NCBI GenBank assembly: GCA_017461225.1
Contig: JAFTYV010000008.1
Coordinates: 1-64,000, forward strand
Length of the DNA stretch: 64,000 nucleotides
Direction of reading: 5' to 3'
Origin: Candidatus Methanomethylophilaceae archaeon
GTDB lineage: Archaea > Thermoplasmatota > Thermoplasmata > Methanomassiliicoccales > Methanomethylophilaceae
This document shows positions 42,242 through 64,000 of this stretch, piece by piece. Below the pieces are notes generated by a model. It saw only the letters and a list, made by a program, of their open reading frames with translations. It was not told the origin of the DNA and ran no database searches. A program made the translations under genes and the position numbers. How positions within the stretch are numbered: the stretch's first letter is position 1; the number at the start of each line of letters is the position of its first letter.

Positions 42242-43132
42242 ATGAGATTGTGGCGTCTTAGAACCCTTTCAATGTTCGCCGCCATGACCCTGATCCTCGT
42301 CGTCGTGGGATGGGTCGTGGGATTCCTGTTCGGAAACGTCTGGACCGGGATGTGGGTGATGCTTGCCATAGCAGTGGTGATGAACCTCGCGTCCTACTTC
42401 TTCTCCAAGAAGATGGCCCTGTCGATGAACAGGGTGCGTCTGGTCACCTACGACGAGGAGCCGAGGCTGTACTCCATCGTCCAGAGGCTCGCCGACCGTG
42501 CCGGTCTCCCCATGCCGGAGGTGGGCATATCCGAGATGCCCATGCCCAACGCATTCGCGACCGGGCGCGGACCCAAGGACGCCGCCGTCGTGGCGACCAG
42601 GCCCCTGCTCAACATGCTCACCGACGAGGAGCTTGAGGGTGTGATGGCCCACGAGCTCTCCCACGTGAAGAACAGGGACATCCTCGTCATGTCCGTCGCA
42701 TCCACCATGGCCGCCATGGTGTCCTACATCACCAGGATGGCCGTGTGGTCGTCCATATTCAGCGACGAGGACAACGGTGGTCTCGGGTTCGCCATCGCAC
42801 TGCTCGCGGACGTGACCATGCCCATCGCGGCCATGCTCGTCCAGCTCGGTGTTTCCAGGAACCGCGAGTACCTCGCCGACGAGTCCGGGGCGCGCCTCAC
42901 CGGGAAGCCCATGGCCCTGGCCAGTGCCCTCAGGACAATCGAGAGCGGATGCTCCACGAACTACAACACATATGACAACCCCTCGGCCGCCAACATGTGG
43001 ATCTCCAACCCCTTCGGGAAGAAGAGGATGTCCGGATTGGTCAACCTGTTCCGCACGCACCCCTCCACGGAGGACCGCATCGAGAGGTTGAAGAAGCTCG
43101 ACACCGAGATCAACGGGATCACCCACTACTGA
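42242..43132 (+). CDS. htpX: HtpX-type membrane zinc protease (M48)
   Basis: 296 residues from the ATG at 42242, with AGGTGA just upstream. Two N-terminal membrane spans (MFAAMTLILVVVGWVVGFLFG and MWVMLAIAVVMNLASYFF), then the zinc motif VMAHELSHVKNRD (HExxH, about 135), two further hydrophobic helices and the third ligand in NREYLADESGARL. It removes damaged membrane proteins. An AT-rich promoter (about 42190-42215) precedes it. Confidence 0.94.
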   Translation: MRLWRLRTLSMFAAMTLILVVVGWVVGFLFGNVWTGMWVMLAIAVVMNLASYFFSKKMALSMNRVRLVTYDEEPRLYSIVQRLADRAGLPMPEVGISEMPMPNAFATGRGPKDAAVVATRPLLNMLTDEELEGVMAHELSHVKNRDILVMSVASTMAAMVSYITRMAVWSSIFSDEDNGGLGFAIALLADVTMPIAAMLVQLGVSRNREYLADESGARLTGKPMALASALRTIESGCSTNYNTYDNPSAANMWISNPFGKKRMSGLVNLFRTHPSTEDRIERLKKLDTEINGITHY

Positions 43133-58585: not shown

Positions 58586-59479
58586 ATGAGATTCGGCCCA
58601 GCAGGTTACCCGTCCGCGGGGAAGGCCCCGGAGAAGGCGTTGGAGTACACCAGAGGACTAGGTCTGGATGCCCTGGAGGTTGAGTTCGTCCGCGGGGCGA
58701 GGATCAAACCGGAGAGGGCGGCGGAGATAGGTGCCAAGGCGAGGCAGCTGGACATAAGGCTGAGTTGCCACGCACCGTACTACATCAGCTTCAACTCGGA
58801 TTCCGTGGAGACGCGTCAGAAGAGCATAGGTTGGGTCATGGACACCGCACGTGCCGCGCACAACCTGGGGGCGTACATAATCGTGATCCATGCCGCATCG
58901 TACGGGAAATCCCCCGACACCGCGCTCCCGTCCGTCGTGGACGGTCTGTCCAAGTGCAAGGACATGTTGGACGACGAGGGGATAAGGGATGTGATCCTCG
59001 GTGTGGAGACCATGGGCAAGCTGGGCCAGTTCGGCACCCTGGACGAGATCGCGAAGGTTATGGACCAGGTGGACGGCGTCCGTCCTGTCCTCGATGTCGC
59101 CCATGTCCATGCACGTGGCCGCGGTTGCCTGAGGACGGAGGCGGACATGAGGGGGCTCATGGACCAGTTCCTCCCGCTGTGCGGCGACATCGCCCACTTC
59201 CACATCAGCTGCATAAAGTACGGCGACAAGGGGGAGATCTCCCATCTCCCGCTCGAGACGAAGGAGCCCGACCTGCAGATGCTTGCCGACATTCTCGACG
59301 ACTCGAAGCAGGAGTGCACGTTCATCTGCGAATCCCCGCTCATCGAGCAGGATGCGGTGGTGTTCAGGGACATGTTCCCCTCCTACCGCCGCACCACGGG
59401 GAGACGGGGGACCGTCCCCCATTTTATTTATATCAAGAATCATTCACCCGATACCATTGCCACTGTGGCTCAGCGGTAG
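58586..59479 (+). CDS. endonuclease IV (Nfo)-like TIM-barrel protein, 3' end runs into tRNA-Thr
   Basis: 297 residues from the ATG at 58586 (58574 is an alternative). Motifs MRFGPAGYPSAG, LSCHAPYYISF, YIIVIHAASYG, GVETMGKLGQFG, VLDVAHVHARG, HFHIS and FICESP supply the His/Glu/Asp metal ligands of apurinic endonuclease IV. Active Nfo is about 285 residues. Here the last 22 codons come from the tRNA promoter and from the first 21 bases of tRNA-Thr, so the native stop seems lost or very late. It is paired divergently with ogg, a base excision partner. Confidence 0.87.
   Translation: MRFGPAGYPSAGKAPEKALEYTRGLGLDALEVEFVRGARIKPERAAEIGAKARQLDIRLSCHAPYYISFNSDSVETRQKSIGWVMDTARAAHNLGAYIIVIHAASYGKSPDTALPSVVDGLSKCKDMLDDEGIRDVILGVETMGKLGQFGTLDEIAKVMDQVDGVRPVLDVAHVHARGRGCLRTEADMRGLMDQFLPLCGDIAHFHISCIKYGDKGEISHLPLETKEPDLQMLADILDDSKQECTFICESPLIEQDAVVFRDMFPSYRRTTGRRGTVPHFIYIKNHSPDTIATVAQR
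59424..59433 (+). promoter_or_regulatory. TATA box of tRNA-Thr
   Basis: ttatttatat, about 26-30 bases before the tRNA 5' end and inside the 3' part of the Nfo-like reading frame. Confidence 0.6.
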
Positions 59480-59533
59480 AGCGGCGGTTTCGTAAACCGT
59501 AGGCCGGGGGTTCGATCCCCTCCAGTGGCTCCA
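59459..59533 (+). tRNA. tRNA-Thr (anticodon CGT), CCA encoded
   Basis: Full cloverleaf: acceptor GCCACTG/CAGTGGC (perfect), D stem GCTC/GAGC, anticodon stem GCGGT/ACCGT with loop TTCGTAA (anticodon at 59491-59493), 5-base variable region and T arm GGGGG-TTCGATC-CCCTC. The discriminator is T, as in archaeal tRNA-Thr, and CCA (59531-59533) is encoded. No intron. It reads ACG codons. The methyltransferase stop of the opposite strand is 5 bases away. Confidence 0.96.
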
Positions 59534-59537
59534 CTTC

Positions 59538-60323
59538 TCACAACAACGGTTCCCAGTACACCATCCTCATCGAGTTCTGCGCCCTGTAATGGACCACGTC
59601 CCCGTCGACGGAGGGTTCCAGAACCTTGCGTACGGCATCTTCCACGCCCTCCGTGCGGCCCATGGCCGCGAACGAGGACAGCTCCCGGGCCACCAGGTCC
59701 TCCACGGGGATGTCGGCCTCGACGACCGTGTGGAACACCTCCTCCACGGCGGCCCTTCCGTTGGAGGAGAGCCACTCCATGGCCGGGGACCGGAGCCTGG
59801 CGCCGTATCCGTAGTCCTTCCCCAGGCGTTTCCAGACATCGGCGTGAAGGTCGTCCCCGTGGTTCTCCACCCAGGAGACCAGCACGCACCAGTGCCTCGA
59901 AGCGGTCTCCATCCTGACGATGGATGCGGGGGAACCCGTTCCGGGACAGAGCGTGGCGATGCAGGTGTCGTACGCCTTCTCCGACGACACGTCGTTCCAG
60001 TCCATGTCGAGGCGGACGAGGTTGTGTACTCCCGCATCGGATGCCAGCGCGGTCAGGCGGTCGAGCATGCGGGGAGAGGTGTCGAGGCACGTCAGCCTCC
60101 CCACACGGGGTGCTATGCCCAGTGAGTACGTCCCGGGGCCGGAACCGATCTCGAGGACATCGTCGGTCGGACCGAGGACACCCAGTTCGACCAGGCGTTC
60201 GACTATGCGTACGGGGATGTCCCCCTGCTGGAATCCGGAGTACCGGTCGGAGTACTCGTCCCAGAAACGCAGTCCCTGTTCGTAAGAGAGCCCCTCCCCC
60301 TGGAATGGATGTATGTCAGACAT
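59538..60323 (-). CDS. class I SAM-dependent methyltransferase
   Basis: 261 residues. SAM motif VLEIGSGPGTYSLGIAPRVGRLTCLDTSP (about 60-88), then VRLDMDWNDV and a post-I region CIATLCPG. The target is unknown. It starts 6 bases after the end of the ABC transporter ATPase gene, as last gene of a substrate-binding protein-permease-ATPase-methyltransferase operon. Such pairing suggests modification of a metallophore or corrinoid-type ligand, an inference from context. Confidence 0.85.
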   Translation of the reverse strand: MSDIHPFQGEGLSYEQGLRFWDEYSDRYSGFQQGDIPVRIVERLVELGVLGPTDDVLEIGSGPGTYSLGIAPRVGRLTCLDTSPRMLDRLTALASDAGVHNLVRLDMDWNDVSSEKAYDTCIATLCPGTGSPASIVRMETASRHWCVLVSWVENHGDDLHADVWKRLGKDYGYGARLRSPAMEWLSSNGRAAVEEVFHTVVEADIPVEDLVARELSSFAAMGRTEGVEDAVRKVLEPSVDGDVVHYRAQNSMRMVYWEPLL

Positions 60324-60329
60324 TGTTTG

Positions 60330-61160
60330 TCACCTCAGTCCATGAACTTCATGCGAATGGCTGTATCCGTCGTGGGTGTGGTGGTAGTGGGCGAGTTCGG
60401 CGGGGAACGTGTGCGGGATGACGAACGGACGGCCCTTGTGGACGATGACATCGGAATCGATCCCGTACACGTCTCTGATGAGTTCCTCCGTGATGATCTC
60501 CGCGTCCCCGTACGCCCTCACGCGGCCGTCCTTGATGAATATGAACATGTCCGAGTAGTGGACGGCCAGGTTGATGTCGTGCATGGTCATGATCGTGCAC
60601 ATGCCGCGTGAGACCACGGCGTGCAGGATGGAGTGCATGGTGGTGTGCTGGTTCGAGATGTCCAGGTTGTTGGTGGGCTCATCGAGGACCAGGATGTCGG
60701 GTTCCTGGGCCATCGCACGGGCGATCTGGACCTTCTGGTACTCGCCACCGCTGATCTCGTCCGCGTAACGCATGGCCAGGTGCTCCAATCCGAGGGATCT
60801 CAGGACCTCCCATGTGATGTCGACGTCCCTGTTCGACATGCCCAGTCCCATGTGCGGTCTCCTGCCGATGAGGACGGTGTCGAACACCGTGGACCTCACC
60901 GGAGGGCTGCGCTGGGGTACGTATCCGACATGTTTCGCCAGGTCCTTCCCGGACAGTGCGAGGATATCCGTGCCGTCTATGGAGACCGATCCCGACTGGG
61001 GTCTGTGGAGGTTGCACAGGCAACGCAGGAGCGTGGTCTTGCCGACCCCGTTCGGTCCCAGGATGGACACGATGCTGTTGCCCCCGACTTCGAACGAGAT
61101 GTCGTCCAGGATCCTCCTGCCGCCGTAGGAGAACGACAGGCCGTCGACCTTCAGAATCAT
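60330..61160 (-). CDS. ABC transporter ATPase, iron/siderophore (FecE/BtuD) type, His-rich tail
   Basis: 276 residues from the ATG at 61160, 4 bases inside the permease end; longer frames are shadow sequence. Walker A LGPNGVGKTTLLRC (about 35-48), Q-loop YVPQR, signature ISGGEYQKVQIARAM, Walker B ILVLDEPTNNLD, switch His in MTMHDINLAV. The C-terminus (HYHHTHDGYSHSHEVHG) has seven His in 17 residues, a probable metal-binding tail. It drives uptake with the adjacent permease. Confidence 0.93.
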   Translation of the reverse strand: MILKVDGLSFSYGGRRILDDISFEVGGNSIVSILGPNGVGKTTLLRCLCNLHRPQSGSVSIDGTDILALSGKDLAKHVGYVPQRSPPVRSTVFDTVLIGRRPHMGLGMSNRDVDITWEVLRSLGLEHLAMRYADEISGGEYQKVQIARAMAQEPDILVLDEPTNNLDISNQHTTMHSILHAVVSRGMCTIMTMHDINLAVHYSDMFIFIKDGRVRAYGDAEIITEELIRDVYGIDSDVIVHKGRPFVIPHTFPAELAHYHHTHDGYSHSHEVHGLR

Positions 61161-62245
61161 GCCGTCGCCCCCTTCCTGCGGTACCCCTTCACCAACAGGT
61201 ACAGGAACAGGGGCCCTCCCAGGAACGATGTGATTATGCCCACGGGCAGCACGAACGGCAGGAGGGTCTGACCGACACAGTCCGAGATCAGGAGGATGAT
61301 GGCACCCAACAGCATGGATCCGGGGAGCAGGTACCTGTGGTCGTTGCCCATGGCCAGACGTATCATGTGCGGCCCCAGCAGTCCGATGAACGCGATCACT
61401 CCCATGAAGGATACGATGACCGATGTCACCAGTGCGGACAGCAGCAGGGAGACCAATCTGAGGGACTGTACATCGATGCCGAGGGACTGGGCGACCTCCG
61501 CCCCGCTCTCCAGTGCGTTGAAGTCCCACCTCTTCCATATGAAGAACGCGGATGCGATCAGGACGACCGCCGCCACGATGGTCAGTTCCTCCCATCCGGC
61601 TTTCCCAAGGGATCCGAACTGCCAGAACACTATCATGGACAGGGCGGTGTCGTTGAATATGTACTGCAGGGCACTGATCCCCGCCGAGAATATCGAACTG
61701 ATCGCGACCCCGGCTAGGACCATGGTCTCCGCGGACACCGTGGTGAGTTTGACGAGTGCTATGATCACACCCGTCGCGATCATCGACCACAGGAAGGCGC
61801 AGATGGTGATGAAGTAGGGGTTCGTGAAGGACACGGATGCACTGCTCTGGCCGACGATCGCCCCTCCCCCGAGGACGATCCCCAGGGCCGCTCCGAACGC
61901 CGCTGCATTGGAGATCCCCAGGGTGTACGGCGAACCGAGCGGGTTCCTCAGGACGCACTGCATCACCGTTCCAGCGATACCCAGTCCGAAACCGGCCAGG
62001 ATCCCGCAGGCTATCCTCGGGAGGTACAGGTTCCAGATCAGGATCACATCCGATGCGTCGTTGGCAGGGTTGTCCCTGTCGATCAGAATCCTCACTATGT
62101 CCGGGATGGGGATGGAGCCCACGTCCAACTTCAGAGTGGTGATGGCGGAGACGATCATTATCGCCGCCAACGTCACCAGTGCAGCTGTCCTCCTGCGGTT
62201 GTATCTGCTGTAGCTGTCCCTGTCGTGGTCCTCGTGATCGGTCAT
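61157..62245 (-). CDS. ABC transporter permease, FecCD family
   Basis: 362 residues, about 10 membrane spans. FecCD motifs LPRIACGILAGFGLGIAGTVMQCVLRNPLGSPYTLGISNAAAFGAAL (about 75-120) and AFIGLLGPHMIRLAMGNDHRYLLPGS (about 285-310) contact the substrate-binding protein and ATPase. The N-terminus is His/Asp/Arg-rich (MTDHEDHDRDSYSRYNRRR). Starts 16 bases after the binding-protein stop. Confidence 0.95.
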   Translation of the reverse strand: MTDHEDHDRDSYSRYNRRRTAALVTLAAIMIVSAITTLKLDVGSIPIPDIVRILIDRDNPANDASDVILIWNLYLPRIACGILAGFGLGIAGTVMQCVLRNPLGSPYTLGISNAAAFGAALGIVLGGGAIVGQSSASVSFTNPYFITICAFLWSMIATGVIIALVKLTTVSAETMVLAGVAISSIFSAGISALQYIFNDTALSMIVFWQFGSLGKAGWEELTIVAAVVLIASAFFIWKRWDFNALESGAEVAQSLGIDVQSLRLVSLLLSALVTSVIVSFMGVIAFIGLLGPHMIRLAMGNDHRYLLPGSMLLGAIILLISDCVGQTLLPFVLPVGIITSFLGGPLFLYLLVKGYRRKGATA

Positions 62246-62261
62246 GGGCTGTGTCCCCGTT

Positions 62262-63488
62262 TCAAAGGTATGTTATCCCGTTCTCGTCGACGCTGATCTC
62301 GCCGTGGATCGGGTTCCCGCGTCTCTCCTCGTAGAGGCGGTTCATGTCCTCGTACACGGACGAATCCGCCGCAGGGGGAACGTTGGATGCGGTCTCGTTG
62401 CGGAGGGAGTCCGAAGTTCCGAGGAATCCCTCGTAGATCTTGTCGGCCTTCTCCTCGAACTCATCGTCCGAAATCAGTCCGTATGCATCGCGCAGTATCT
62501 GATAGGCTCCCACGAGGACGTTCTCGTAGTTCATCCCCGTCCAGATGTACGGGCAGGCTATGTACGCCTCATGGCCCTTGAACAGTTCCATTATGCCCCG
62601 GTCCGTGTTGGTGGTGCATGTGTAGATCCCCGTCGCGTCCATGAAGAGTATCGTGTCATCCTCGATGTTGTTCTTTATCGTTGTCGCGGAGTACGTCCCG
62701 ACGTGGCTGTACTGGTCGACATCCCCTGAGGCATCGGCCATTATGTTTGTTATCCCCGCCAGTTCGAAGGGCATGTAGTACGACATCGAGGAGTCCATGC
62801 CATGGGCCCCGTTGTATGCGAGGGAGCATATGAATCCCGTGCGTCTGTCGGTGATCTTGTCGCGGATGCTCAGGATATCATCCACAGTCTCGTCTATGAG
62901 GGATTTCAGGGCCTCGCCACGTTCCTCCATGCCGAGGACCATGGACATCTTGTCGATCTGTCTGACGAGGTCCGTCGTCATCTCGAAGGTCCCGTTCTCG
63001 AGGAAGGTGTATATGTATCCGATGTGGAAAACGTTCAGTCCCGCCGCCCTCAGCGAGTCCATGTCGTTCTTGTGCGTGTTCTCGAACTCGGCCGGGACCA
63101 CGACGAGTGAGGGGTTGAGGTCCAGGATGGTTGATGTGTCCCCAGGTGACACTTCGCAGTTCACCGATGTGAATTTCAGATCGGGGTTGTTCTCCAACGC
63201 CCGGGCCTTTCCGACGTACATGAACGCCTTGCCCATGTAGTTCGTCTTGTCGTTCAGATCCACCATGACGCACTTCTCGGATAGTCCGAAGTATGTGATC
63301 CACCTGAATGAATCCTGACCTATCGCCACGATTCCGTTGTCCAGGTTGTCCACAGGTGTGATCTCGAATCCTGCGAAATCCTTGGATTCACCATCAACGG
63401 GCGATTCATCGTAGATAATCGCCGCACCTGCCGCGGCAAGGGCCACTAGGGCCACCACCGCGATTGCGATGACGCTGCTGCGCTCCAT
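62262..63488 (-). CDS. ABC transporter substrate-binding lipoprotein-like protein, iron/siderophore type
   Basis: 408 residues from the ATG at 63488, which sits about 25 bases after a TATA-like box (63512-63522); a second ATG at 63506 lies in the same hairpin. An N-terminal hydrophobic segment (SSVIAIAVVALVALAAAGAAIIY) anchors it; there is no lipobox Cys. The fold is a two-lobed periplasmic-binding type (FAGFEITPVDNLDNGIVAIG, NPSLVVVPAEF, ITNIMADASGD, GIYTCTTNTDRG). Metal complex import is likely, and the ligand is unknown. Confidence 0.85.
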   Translation of the reverse strand: MERSSVIAIAVVALVALAAAGAAIIYDESPVDGESKDFAGFEITPVDNLDNGIVAIGQDSFRWITYFGLSEKCVMVDLNDKTNYMGKAFMYVGKARALENNPDLKFTSVNCEVSPGDTSTILDLNPSLVVVPAEFENTHKNDMDSLRAAGLNVFHIGYIYTFLENGTFEMTTDLVRQIDKMSMVLGMEERGEALKSLIDETVDDILSIRDKITDRRTGFICSLAYNGAHGMDSSMSYYMPFELAGITNIMADASGDVDQYSHVGTYSATTIKNNIEDDTILFMDATGIYTCTTNTDRGIMELFKGHEAYIACPYIWTGMNYENVLVGAYQILRDAYGLISDDEFEEKADKIYEGFLGTSDSLRNETASNVPPAADSSVYEDMNRLYEERRGNPIHGEISVDENGITYL

Positions 63489-63510
63489 GGGGCACGGATG
63501 CCCCATGGAG
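63483..63510. promoter_or_regulatory. perfect hairpin covering the start of the binding-protein gene
   Basis: CTCCATGGGGCA-4 bases-TGCCCCATGGAG, a 12-bp perfect stem. Both candidate start codons lie inside it, one in each arm. It may hinder translation, or it may bind a regulator at the DNA level. Confidence 0.55.
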
Positions 63511-63511
63511 T

Positions 63512-63522
63512 TAATAATACTA
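63512..63522 (-). promoter_or_regulatory. TATA box of the metal transporter operon
   Basis: Minus-strand tagtattattaa, 24-30 bases before the ATG at 63488, overlapped by the palindrome at 63518-63536. Confidence 0.5.
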
Positions 63523-63536
63523 ATCTCAGATTAGTA
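63518..63536. promoter_or_regulatory. 19-bp palindromic operator of the metal transporter operon
   Basis: tactaatct-c-agattagta, a perfect palindrome overlapping the TATA box. This is the size and place expected for a metal-dependent DtxR- or Fur-like repressor. The regulator is not identified. Confidence 0.6.
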
Positions 63537-63560
63537 ACACTATGGTGTTACGAATGTAAC
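63534..63560. promoter_or_regulatory. array of GTAAC/GTTAC half-sites
   Basis: gtaacac-tatg-gtgttac (63534-63551) and gttac-gaat-gtaac (63547-63560) are two overlapping inverted repeats directly upstream of the 19-bp palindrome. They suggest cooperative regulator binding, or a second regulator. Confidence 0.5.
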
Positions 63561-63573
63561 AACAGTATTACCG

Positions 63574-64000
63574 TCAATCCTTCCTCATGTAGGTGTTGAC
63601 TATCTTGACGGCGCAGACGTCCCCGCACATGGAGCAACCCTCCTCCTTCTTGGTGCATCCGCGCTCCCTGTACCTGCGGGCCTTCTCGGGGTCGATGCAC
63701 ACATCGAACATGGTCTCCCAATCCAGCGCCTTCCTGGCGCGGGCCATCTTGGAATCGAGTTCCCCTCCGATGCCCCTGGACAGATCCCCGACGTGTGCGG
63801 CGATCCTCGATGCGATGACCCCCTCCTTGACATCGTCGACGTCCGGCAGGGACAGGTGCTCGGCGGGTGTGAGGTAGCAGAGGAAGTCCGCCCCGTTCTG
63901 CGCCGCGATGGCACCCCCTATCGCACCCACGATGTGGTCGTACCCGGGCGCTATGTCCGTGACCAGGGGCCCCAGCACGTAGAACGGCGCCCCGTGGCAC
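63574..64000 (-). CDS. thiC: phosphomethylpyrimidine synthase ThiC, C-terminal part (cut by window edge)
   Basis: The visible 142 residues are the 3' end of ThiC. Motifs: [23 protein letters not shown] at the edge, [14 protein letters not shown], and the C-terminal radical-SAM cluster [12 protein letters not shown] (Cys-x2-Cys-x4-Cys), which is unusual in being at the C-terminus. The enzyme turns AIR into the thiamin pyrimidine. The 5' part lies beyond base 64000. Its end faces away from the metal operon promoter. Confidence 0.95.

Follow-up and report, generated by a model that had tools for sequence, protein, structure and literature searches.

Tandem NikR-type operator candidates before a FecCD-type transporter operon in a Methanomethylophilaceae archaeon

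The NikR signal of delta-proteobacteria has been described as GTGTTAC-N13/14-GTAACAC, together with its reversed form GTAACAC-N13/14-GTGTTAC, and lies before nickel transport genes (sections of PMC545781). In Escherichia coli, a Ni-NikR tetramer binds the operator GTATGA-N16-TCATAC (sections of PMC7055735). In methanogens, the ECF-type transporter NikMNQO is placed under NikR control (sections of PMC10617489 and PMC2667541), and NiuBDE of Helicobacter pylori, formerly named ceuE/fecDE, is a nickel transporter with a NikR link (sections of PMC5140060).

Here we analysed a window of 64,000 nucleotides, the whole of the stretch under study, which is contig 6 of the 1.52 Mb draft genome of a Methanomethylophilaceae archaeon. 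Behind the 3′ end of thiC it carries a minus-strand operon in which profile searches place a binding protein, a FecCD permease and an ATPase together (Table 1), preceded by what are quite probably two adjoining NikR operators, judging from their sequence. Half-sites, spacing and the use of both orientations are like those of the delta-proteobacterial operators (sections of PMC545781), whereas the window is archaeal, has mixed orientation, a tandem with a 4-bp gap and a position over a TATA-like box, and precedes a FecCD operon instead of nikMQO. The E. coli dyad is of similar span but differs in half-site sequence and is a single operator at nikABCDE (sections of PMC7055735). NiuBDE resembles the window operon in being FecCD-type, a comparison made by shared families alone; nickel import and the NikR link are properties of NiuBDE, which in contrast belongs to a Gram-negative bacterium, works with an outer-membrane transporter and has its binding-protein genes outside the permease-ATPase operon (sections of PMC5140060). 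NikMNQO is likewise an archaeal, NikR-controlled nickel uptake system, but the window transporter is FecCD-type and stands in a genome in which our search of 60 genomes for CbiM/NikM found no CbiM (compared with sections of PMC10617489 and PMC2667541). The kind of system is already known; the new parts are the archaeal FecCD target and a tandem spacing that recurs in relatives.

Table 1. Features of the transporter locus and its promoter region (window coordinates).
Feature	Position	Strand	Basis or remark
Putative methyltransferase	59538..60323	-	Possible fourth gene of the operon
ABC ATPase, histidine-rich C-terminal tail	60330..61160	-	Profile match; tail inspected
FecCD-type permease	61157..62245	-	Profile E 2.4e-82
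Substrate-binding protein, Peripla_BP_2 type, class III fold	62262..63488	-	Pfam E 3.1e-5, below cut-off
Likeliest start codon of the binding protein	63486..63488	-	Operator spacing and N-terminus alignment
Inverted repeat with 12-bp arms over both ATGs (63506, 63488)	63483..63510	.	Function doubtful
TATA-like box TTATTAA	63511..63517	-	Read from the sequence; role suggested by position
Proximal NikR-type operator (predicted), GTGTTAC-N13-GTATTAT	63514..63540	-	Overlaps the TATA-like box
Perfect 19-bp palindrome, core of the proximal operator	63518..63536	.	Not conserved as such
Distal NikR-type operator (predicted), GTAATAC-N13-GTAACAC	63545..63571	-	Begins 2 bp beyond the stop codon of thiC; published consensus
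thiC, 3′ part, upstream neighbour	63574..64000	-	Profile match

The binding protein scores 23.9 bits against a Pfam cut-off of 27.5; the class III fold nonetheless agrees with the assignment. Its structure model (mean pLDDT 77.8) has TM0189 as the nearest solved structure, a modelled likeness that names no substrate. By eye, we counted eight histidines within the last 27 residues of the ATPase (60330–60410, minus strand). Among six complete relatives, two (L089 and L090) have at least five histidines in their final 35 residues, and the other four lack such a tail. Downstream of the operon, on the opposite strand, lies a tRNA gene (59459–59530, plus strand; Rfam 68.7 bits).

All of the repeats reported in the initial annotation are present: a hairpin over both candidate start codons (perfect 12-bp arms and a 4-nt loop, hence 24 paired bases in 28 nt), a perfect 19-bp palindrome of the odd type and two further GTAAC/GTTAC inverted repeats. 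They lie inside the bounds 63483–63560 that had been given for the feature, whose true extent, past these coordinates, reaches 63571. The GTAACAC-CATA-GTGTTAC repeat is formed by the facing inner arms of the two tandem operators, and the GTTAC-ATTC-GTAAC repeat draws its GTTAC from the spacer of the distal one. Read along the minus strand, the order is distal operator, CATA, proximal operator, TAA and then the start region; the two predicted operators, of 27 bp each, and their 4-bp gap together occupy the interval from the thiC stop codon to the TATA-like box. Their starts are 31 bp apart, or about three helical turns, a spacing that would suit two proteins bound to the same side of the helix. 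In form they agree with the published NikR half-sites, the 13–14 bp spacer and the reversed form. Against the degenerate pattern GTRWYAC-N13/14-GTRWYAC, in which the R/W/Y degeneracy was our own choice, the distal operator is exact and the proximal one has one mismatch.

The 19-bp palindrome itself was rejected as the operator unit. The window holds two odd palindromes of this size, the other at 42703–42721. Searching the genome for the promoter palindrome, as the initial annotation had proposed, gave a single match at up to three mismatches; in the proposed comparison with relatives, its spacer is not conserved and the 27-bp frame around it is kept. The two grounds named beforehand for abandoning the proposal, namely that no other promoter carries the palindrome and that it is poorly conserved, thus hold for the palindrome and not for the operator frame. 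What stands of the proposal is a promoter controlled by a metal repressor, with one additional site that is probably cooperative; the palindrome is not its operator, and the further repeats are arms of the second one. The palindrome had been assigned to no regulator, and NikR can now be proposed by way of the 27-bp frame instead.

A related binding protein (E 1e-3 or better) is encoded in 30 of 60 genomes, the genome of the window included. We scanned 150 bp upstream of 36 such Methanomassiliicoccales genes, comprising the best locus of each of the 30 genomes (L003–L032) and six of 14 further loci; the other eight lie on contigs equal in length to ones already in the set, and L096, which shares its assembly with L090, is the second copy in G005. 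Sites with at most one mismatch to the degenerate pattern were found in 23 of the 36 regions, compared with none for the reversed-pattern control and 0.3% for shuffled sequences (50 per region), an enrichment that is not fully independent here because the pattern was derived from some of these regions, whereas the CbiM/NikM test described below is independent. The 150 bp upstream held no such site in 13 regions. Two of these have a site with two mismatches (L006 and L084), L013 precedes the second gene of a tandem pair, L032 shows a partial match and L021 has a strict site about 860 bp upstream; the rest are L009, L019, L026, L029, L087, L088, L092 and L094. Both arm orientations of the published NikR signal occur in the relatives, plus mixed forms. 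Starting from 24 primary sites (the 23 and that of L006) and requiring at least 11 of 14 positions, we found a second site at an offset of -31 in four (G000, G022, G017 and G044) and of -30 in one, that is 5 of 24 altogether. L008 also has a second site, with a 14-bp spacer. The only other matches were two, at -51 and -47, besides trivial +20/-20 offsets that share one half-site.

The genome of the window encodes a canonical NikR, which aligns over its full length to 2bj1, 2wvd and 2ca9 (E 9.5e-29 against Pyrococcus horikoshii NikR) and consists of a ribbon-helix-helix and a C-terminal domain; HVH and C are conserved by eye and are presumably part of the His/His/His/Cys nickel site. CbiM/NikM genes gave 57 matches in 45 of the 60 genomes, and 50 of their upstream regions were scanned, seven being left out because they were fragmentary or stood near the end of a contig. 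Of the 27 genes from outside the window's family, 9 have a site within 100 bp when no more than one mismatch is allowed (control, 0), and allowing two mismatches yields 13 of 27 versus one in the control. The promoter-proximal scan found no site at any of the 23 genes inside the family. Over the full ~400 bp, two-mismatch counts do not separate from the control (15/50 versus 13/50), and the result therefore depends on the promoter-proximal part. The sites before CbiM/NikM genes outside the family tie the operator to nickel.

Copies of the motif also occur away from promoters. In the genome of the window there is no second promoter with a strict site, and neither of the two other strict matches is at a promoter. 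One (C1:18026-18053; L041 9027-9054) lies beside nikR in the convergent gap between the topA 3′ end and a zinc-ribbon-like ORF. The motif is in this gap in all seven congeneric genomes inspected (this one and L158–L163; three with one mismatch) and was not found there in G037, which belongs to another family. The second (C26:7189-7215; L042 3190-3216) is a G+C-rich inverted repeat downstream of a minus-strand ORF; the repeat matches the pattern by its ends and by eye looks like a terminator. G013 has 27 exact GTAACAC-N13/14-GTGTTAC sites (loci L144–L157 and L179–L191), compared with one to three in four congeneric relatives and none in the control. Their extended consensus matches that of the promoter sites. 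Spacers and flanks differ between the copies, and the 150-bp flanks have no 14-mers in common save for one pair at contig ends (L154/L181). According to mechanical ORF calls, four of the 27 fall within predicted ORFs; of the remaining 23, 19 are no more than 80 bp from a predicted gene 3′ end. Most copies come directly behind genes whose functions are unrelated. A nickel regulon in G013 was rejected, since the neighbours include MATE, MetRS, FTHFS and Ham1 families (20 ORFs scanned).

Control of the operon at the RNA level, by the hairpin and separately from the DNA operators, is quite improbable. The repeat is the only one in the window with arms of at least 12 and a loop of up to 10, it spans both ATGs, and a longer RNA containing all of it folds strongly (z -4.1). 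Its occurrence exceeds chance only weakly, as 20 dinucleotide shuffles of the window gave a mean of 0.1 such hairpins and two of the 20 held one. The hairpin sequence was absent from every fetched locus outside the genome of the window, being present in only six of the 191 loci searched. Its 5′ arm is moreover predicted to lie outside the transcript. In 7 of 10 genes, 24–25 nt separate the operator from the ATG indicated by N-terminus alignment (17, 17 and 29 in the rest); the second ATG of the window, at 63488, lies 25 nt from the operator, compared with 24–25 nt in six of nine relatives, and was picked for this reason. Archaeal transcription starts at a usual spacing from the TATA box, which from TTATTAA at 63517–63511 puts the start at about the same ATG. 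The transcript would then be leaderless or nearly so and would lack the 5′ arm; the RNA shortened accordingly shows nothing unusual (z -0.23). There was no Rfam match to the hairpin either, the tRNA being the only credible one in 59000–64000. The translational hairpin that the initial annotation had considered possible is thus unsupported, and the repeat is probably not a translational switch. That the repeats arose by chance or reflect low-complexity, A+T-rich sequence serving no regulator is the least probable of the explanations weighed here: in its favour, the perfect palindrome is unique and the operator motif also stands at gene 3′ ends, but the enrichment at related promoters over reversed-pattern and shuffled controls and the near-fixed distance to the start codon argue against it.

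Alternatively, the sites may be bound by another regulator, in particular a NikR_C paralog, or a metalloregulator not related to NikR that responds to iron, cobalt or corrinoid, with the operon importing that substrate. We consider this unlikely, although several observations point in its direction. A second, shorter NikR_C protein of about 130 residues (C29:58059-58226; L043 2269-2739) retains the HxH...C motif, and its kind occurs in most relatives searched; FecCD/Peripla_BP_2 systems carry mostly iron chelates, heme or cobalamin, and the nearest solved relatives carry an iron-transporter label. A canonical NikR match, taken as missing where the best E is above 1e-20 (a cut of our choice), is lacking in 9 of 60 genomes, and two of these are counterexamples: G052, perhaps through an assembly gap, has sites before binding-protein genes, and G045 (88% complete) has one before CbiM. 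Against another regulator stands the identity of the operator motif with the published NikR signal (sections of PMC545781), as does its occurrence before CbiM/NikM genes. Genome-wide counts, in which each palindromic site is scored on both strands, also favour NikR: the 37 NikR-bearing genomes that are at least 90% complete gave 190 pattern matches versus 73 in the control, whereas G031, G032, G034 and G035, which have a paralog-like match and no canonical NikR, show no excess (12 versus 10 for the five genomes of this completeness without canonical NikR, G052 included).

We favour control by NikR itself and put at roughly three in four the probability that the operon is a FecCD-type nickel importer silenced by Ni-NikR bound across the TATA box. 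The histidine-rich ATPase tail adds to the case; on the other side stand the 13 upstream regions lacking a site, the want of a second promoter with such a site in the genome of the window, the copies at gene 3′ ends in relatives and the presence of a second NikR_C protein. When nickel suffices, Ni-loaded NikR tetramers would occupy both operators, probably cooperatively and from the same side of the helix. As the proximal operator spans the TATA-like box, TBP/TFB would be excluded and the operon of binding protein, FecCD permease and ATPase repressed. As nickel falls, NikR would be released, and transcription of the operon would begin close to the ATG at 63488, giving an mRNA with little or no leader. 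With CbiM/NikM undetected, the operon probably serves as the archaeon's importer of nickel or a nickel chelate.

Judged from its regulation, the operon is rather likely a nickel importer, and its substrate is probably nickel or a nickel chelate. A link between CbiM loss and presence of the transporter was considered as further support and set aside as suggestive at most: among 11 genomes that have a close ortholog, 6 lack CbiM, as do 9 of the 49 others (p 0.02, kinship ignored), but p is 0.075 in the 42 genomes that are at least 90% complete and 0.23 if any binding-protein match is counted. More speculatively, and in our view doubtful, a FecCD importer under NikR may have taken over nickel uptake from NikMNQO in the window's family, and the operator may have gained a use away from promoters and multiplied in G013, as a NikR reservoir or a 3′-end element read by NikR.

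In the open-access literature we found no NikR-controlled FecCD importer in archaea. The proposed pairing of operator and regulator is testable and argues against the iron/siderophore label that is usual for such an operon. Among 10 Methanomassiliicoccales genomes, NikR has been reported in all and NikM not in all (sections of PMC10617489); a NikR-controlled FecCD importer would explain the nickel supply of members of the order without NikM.
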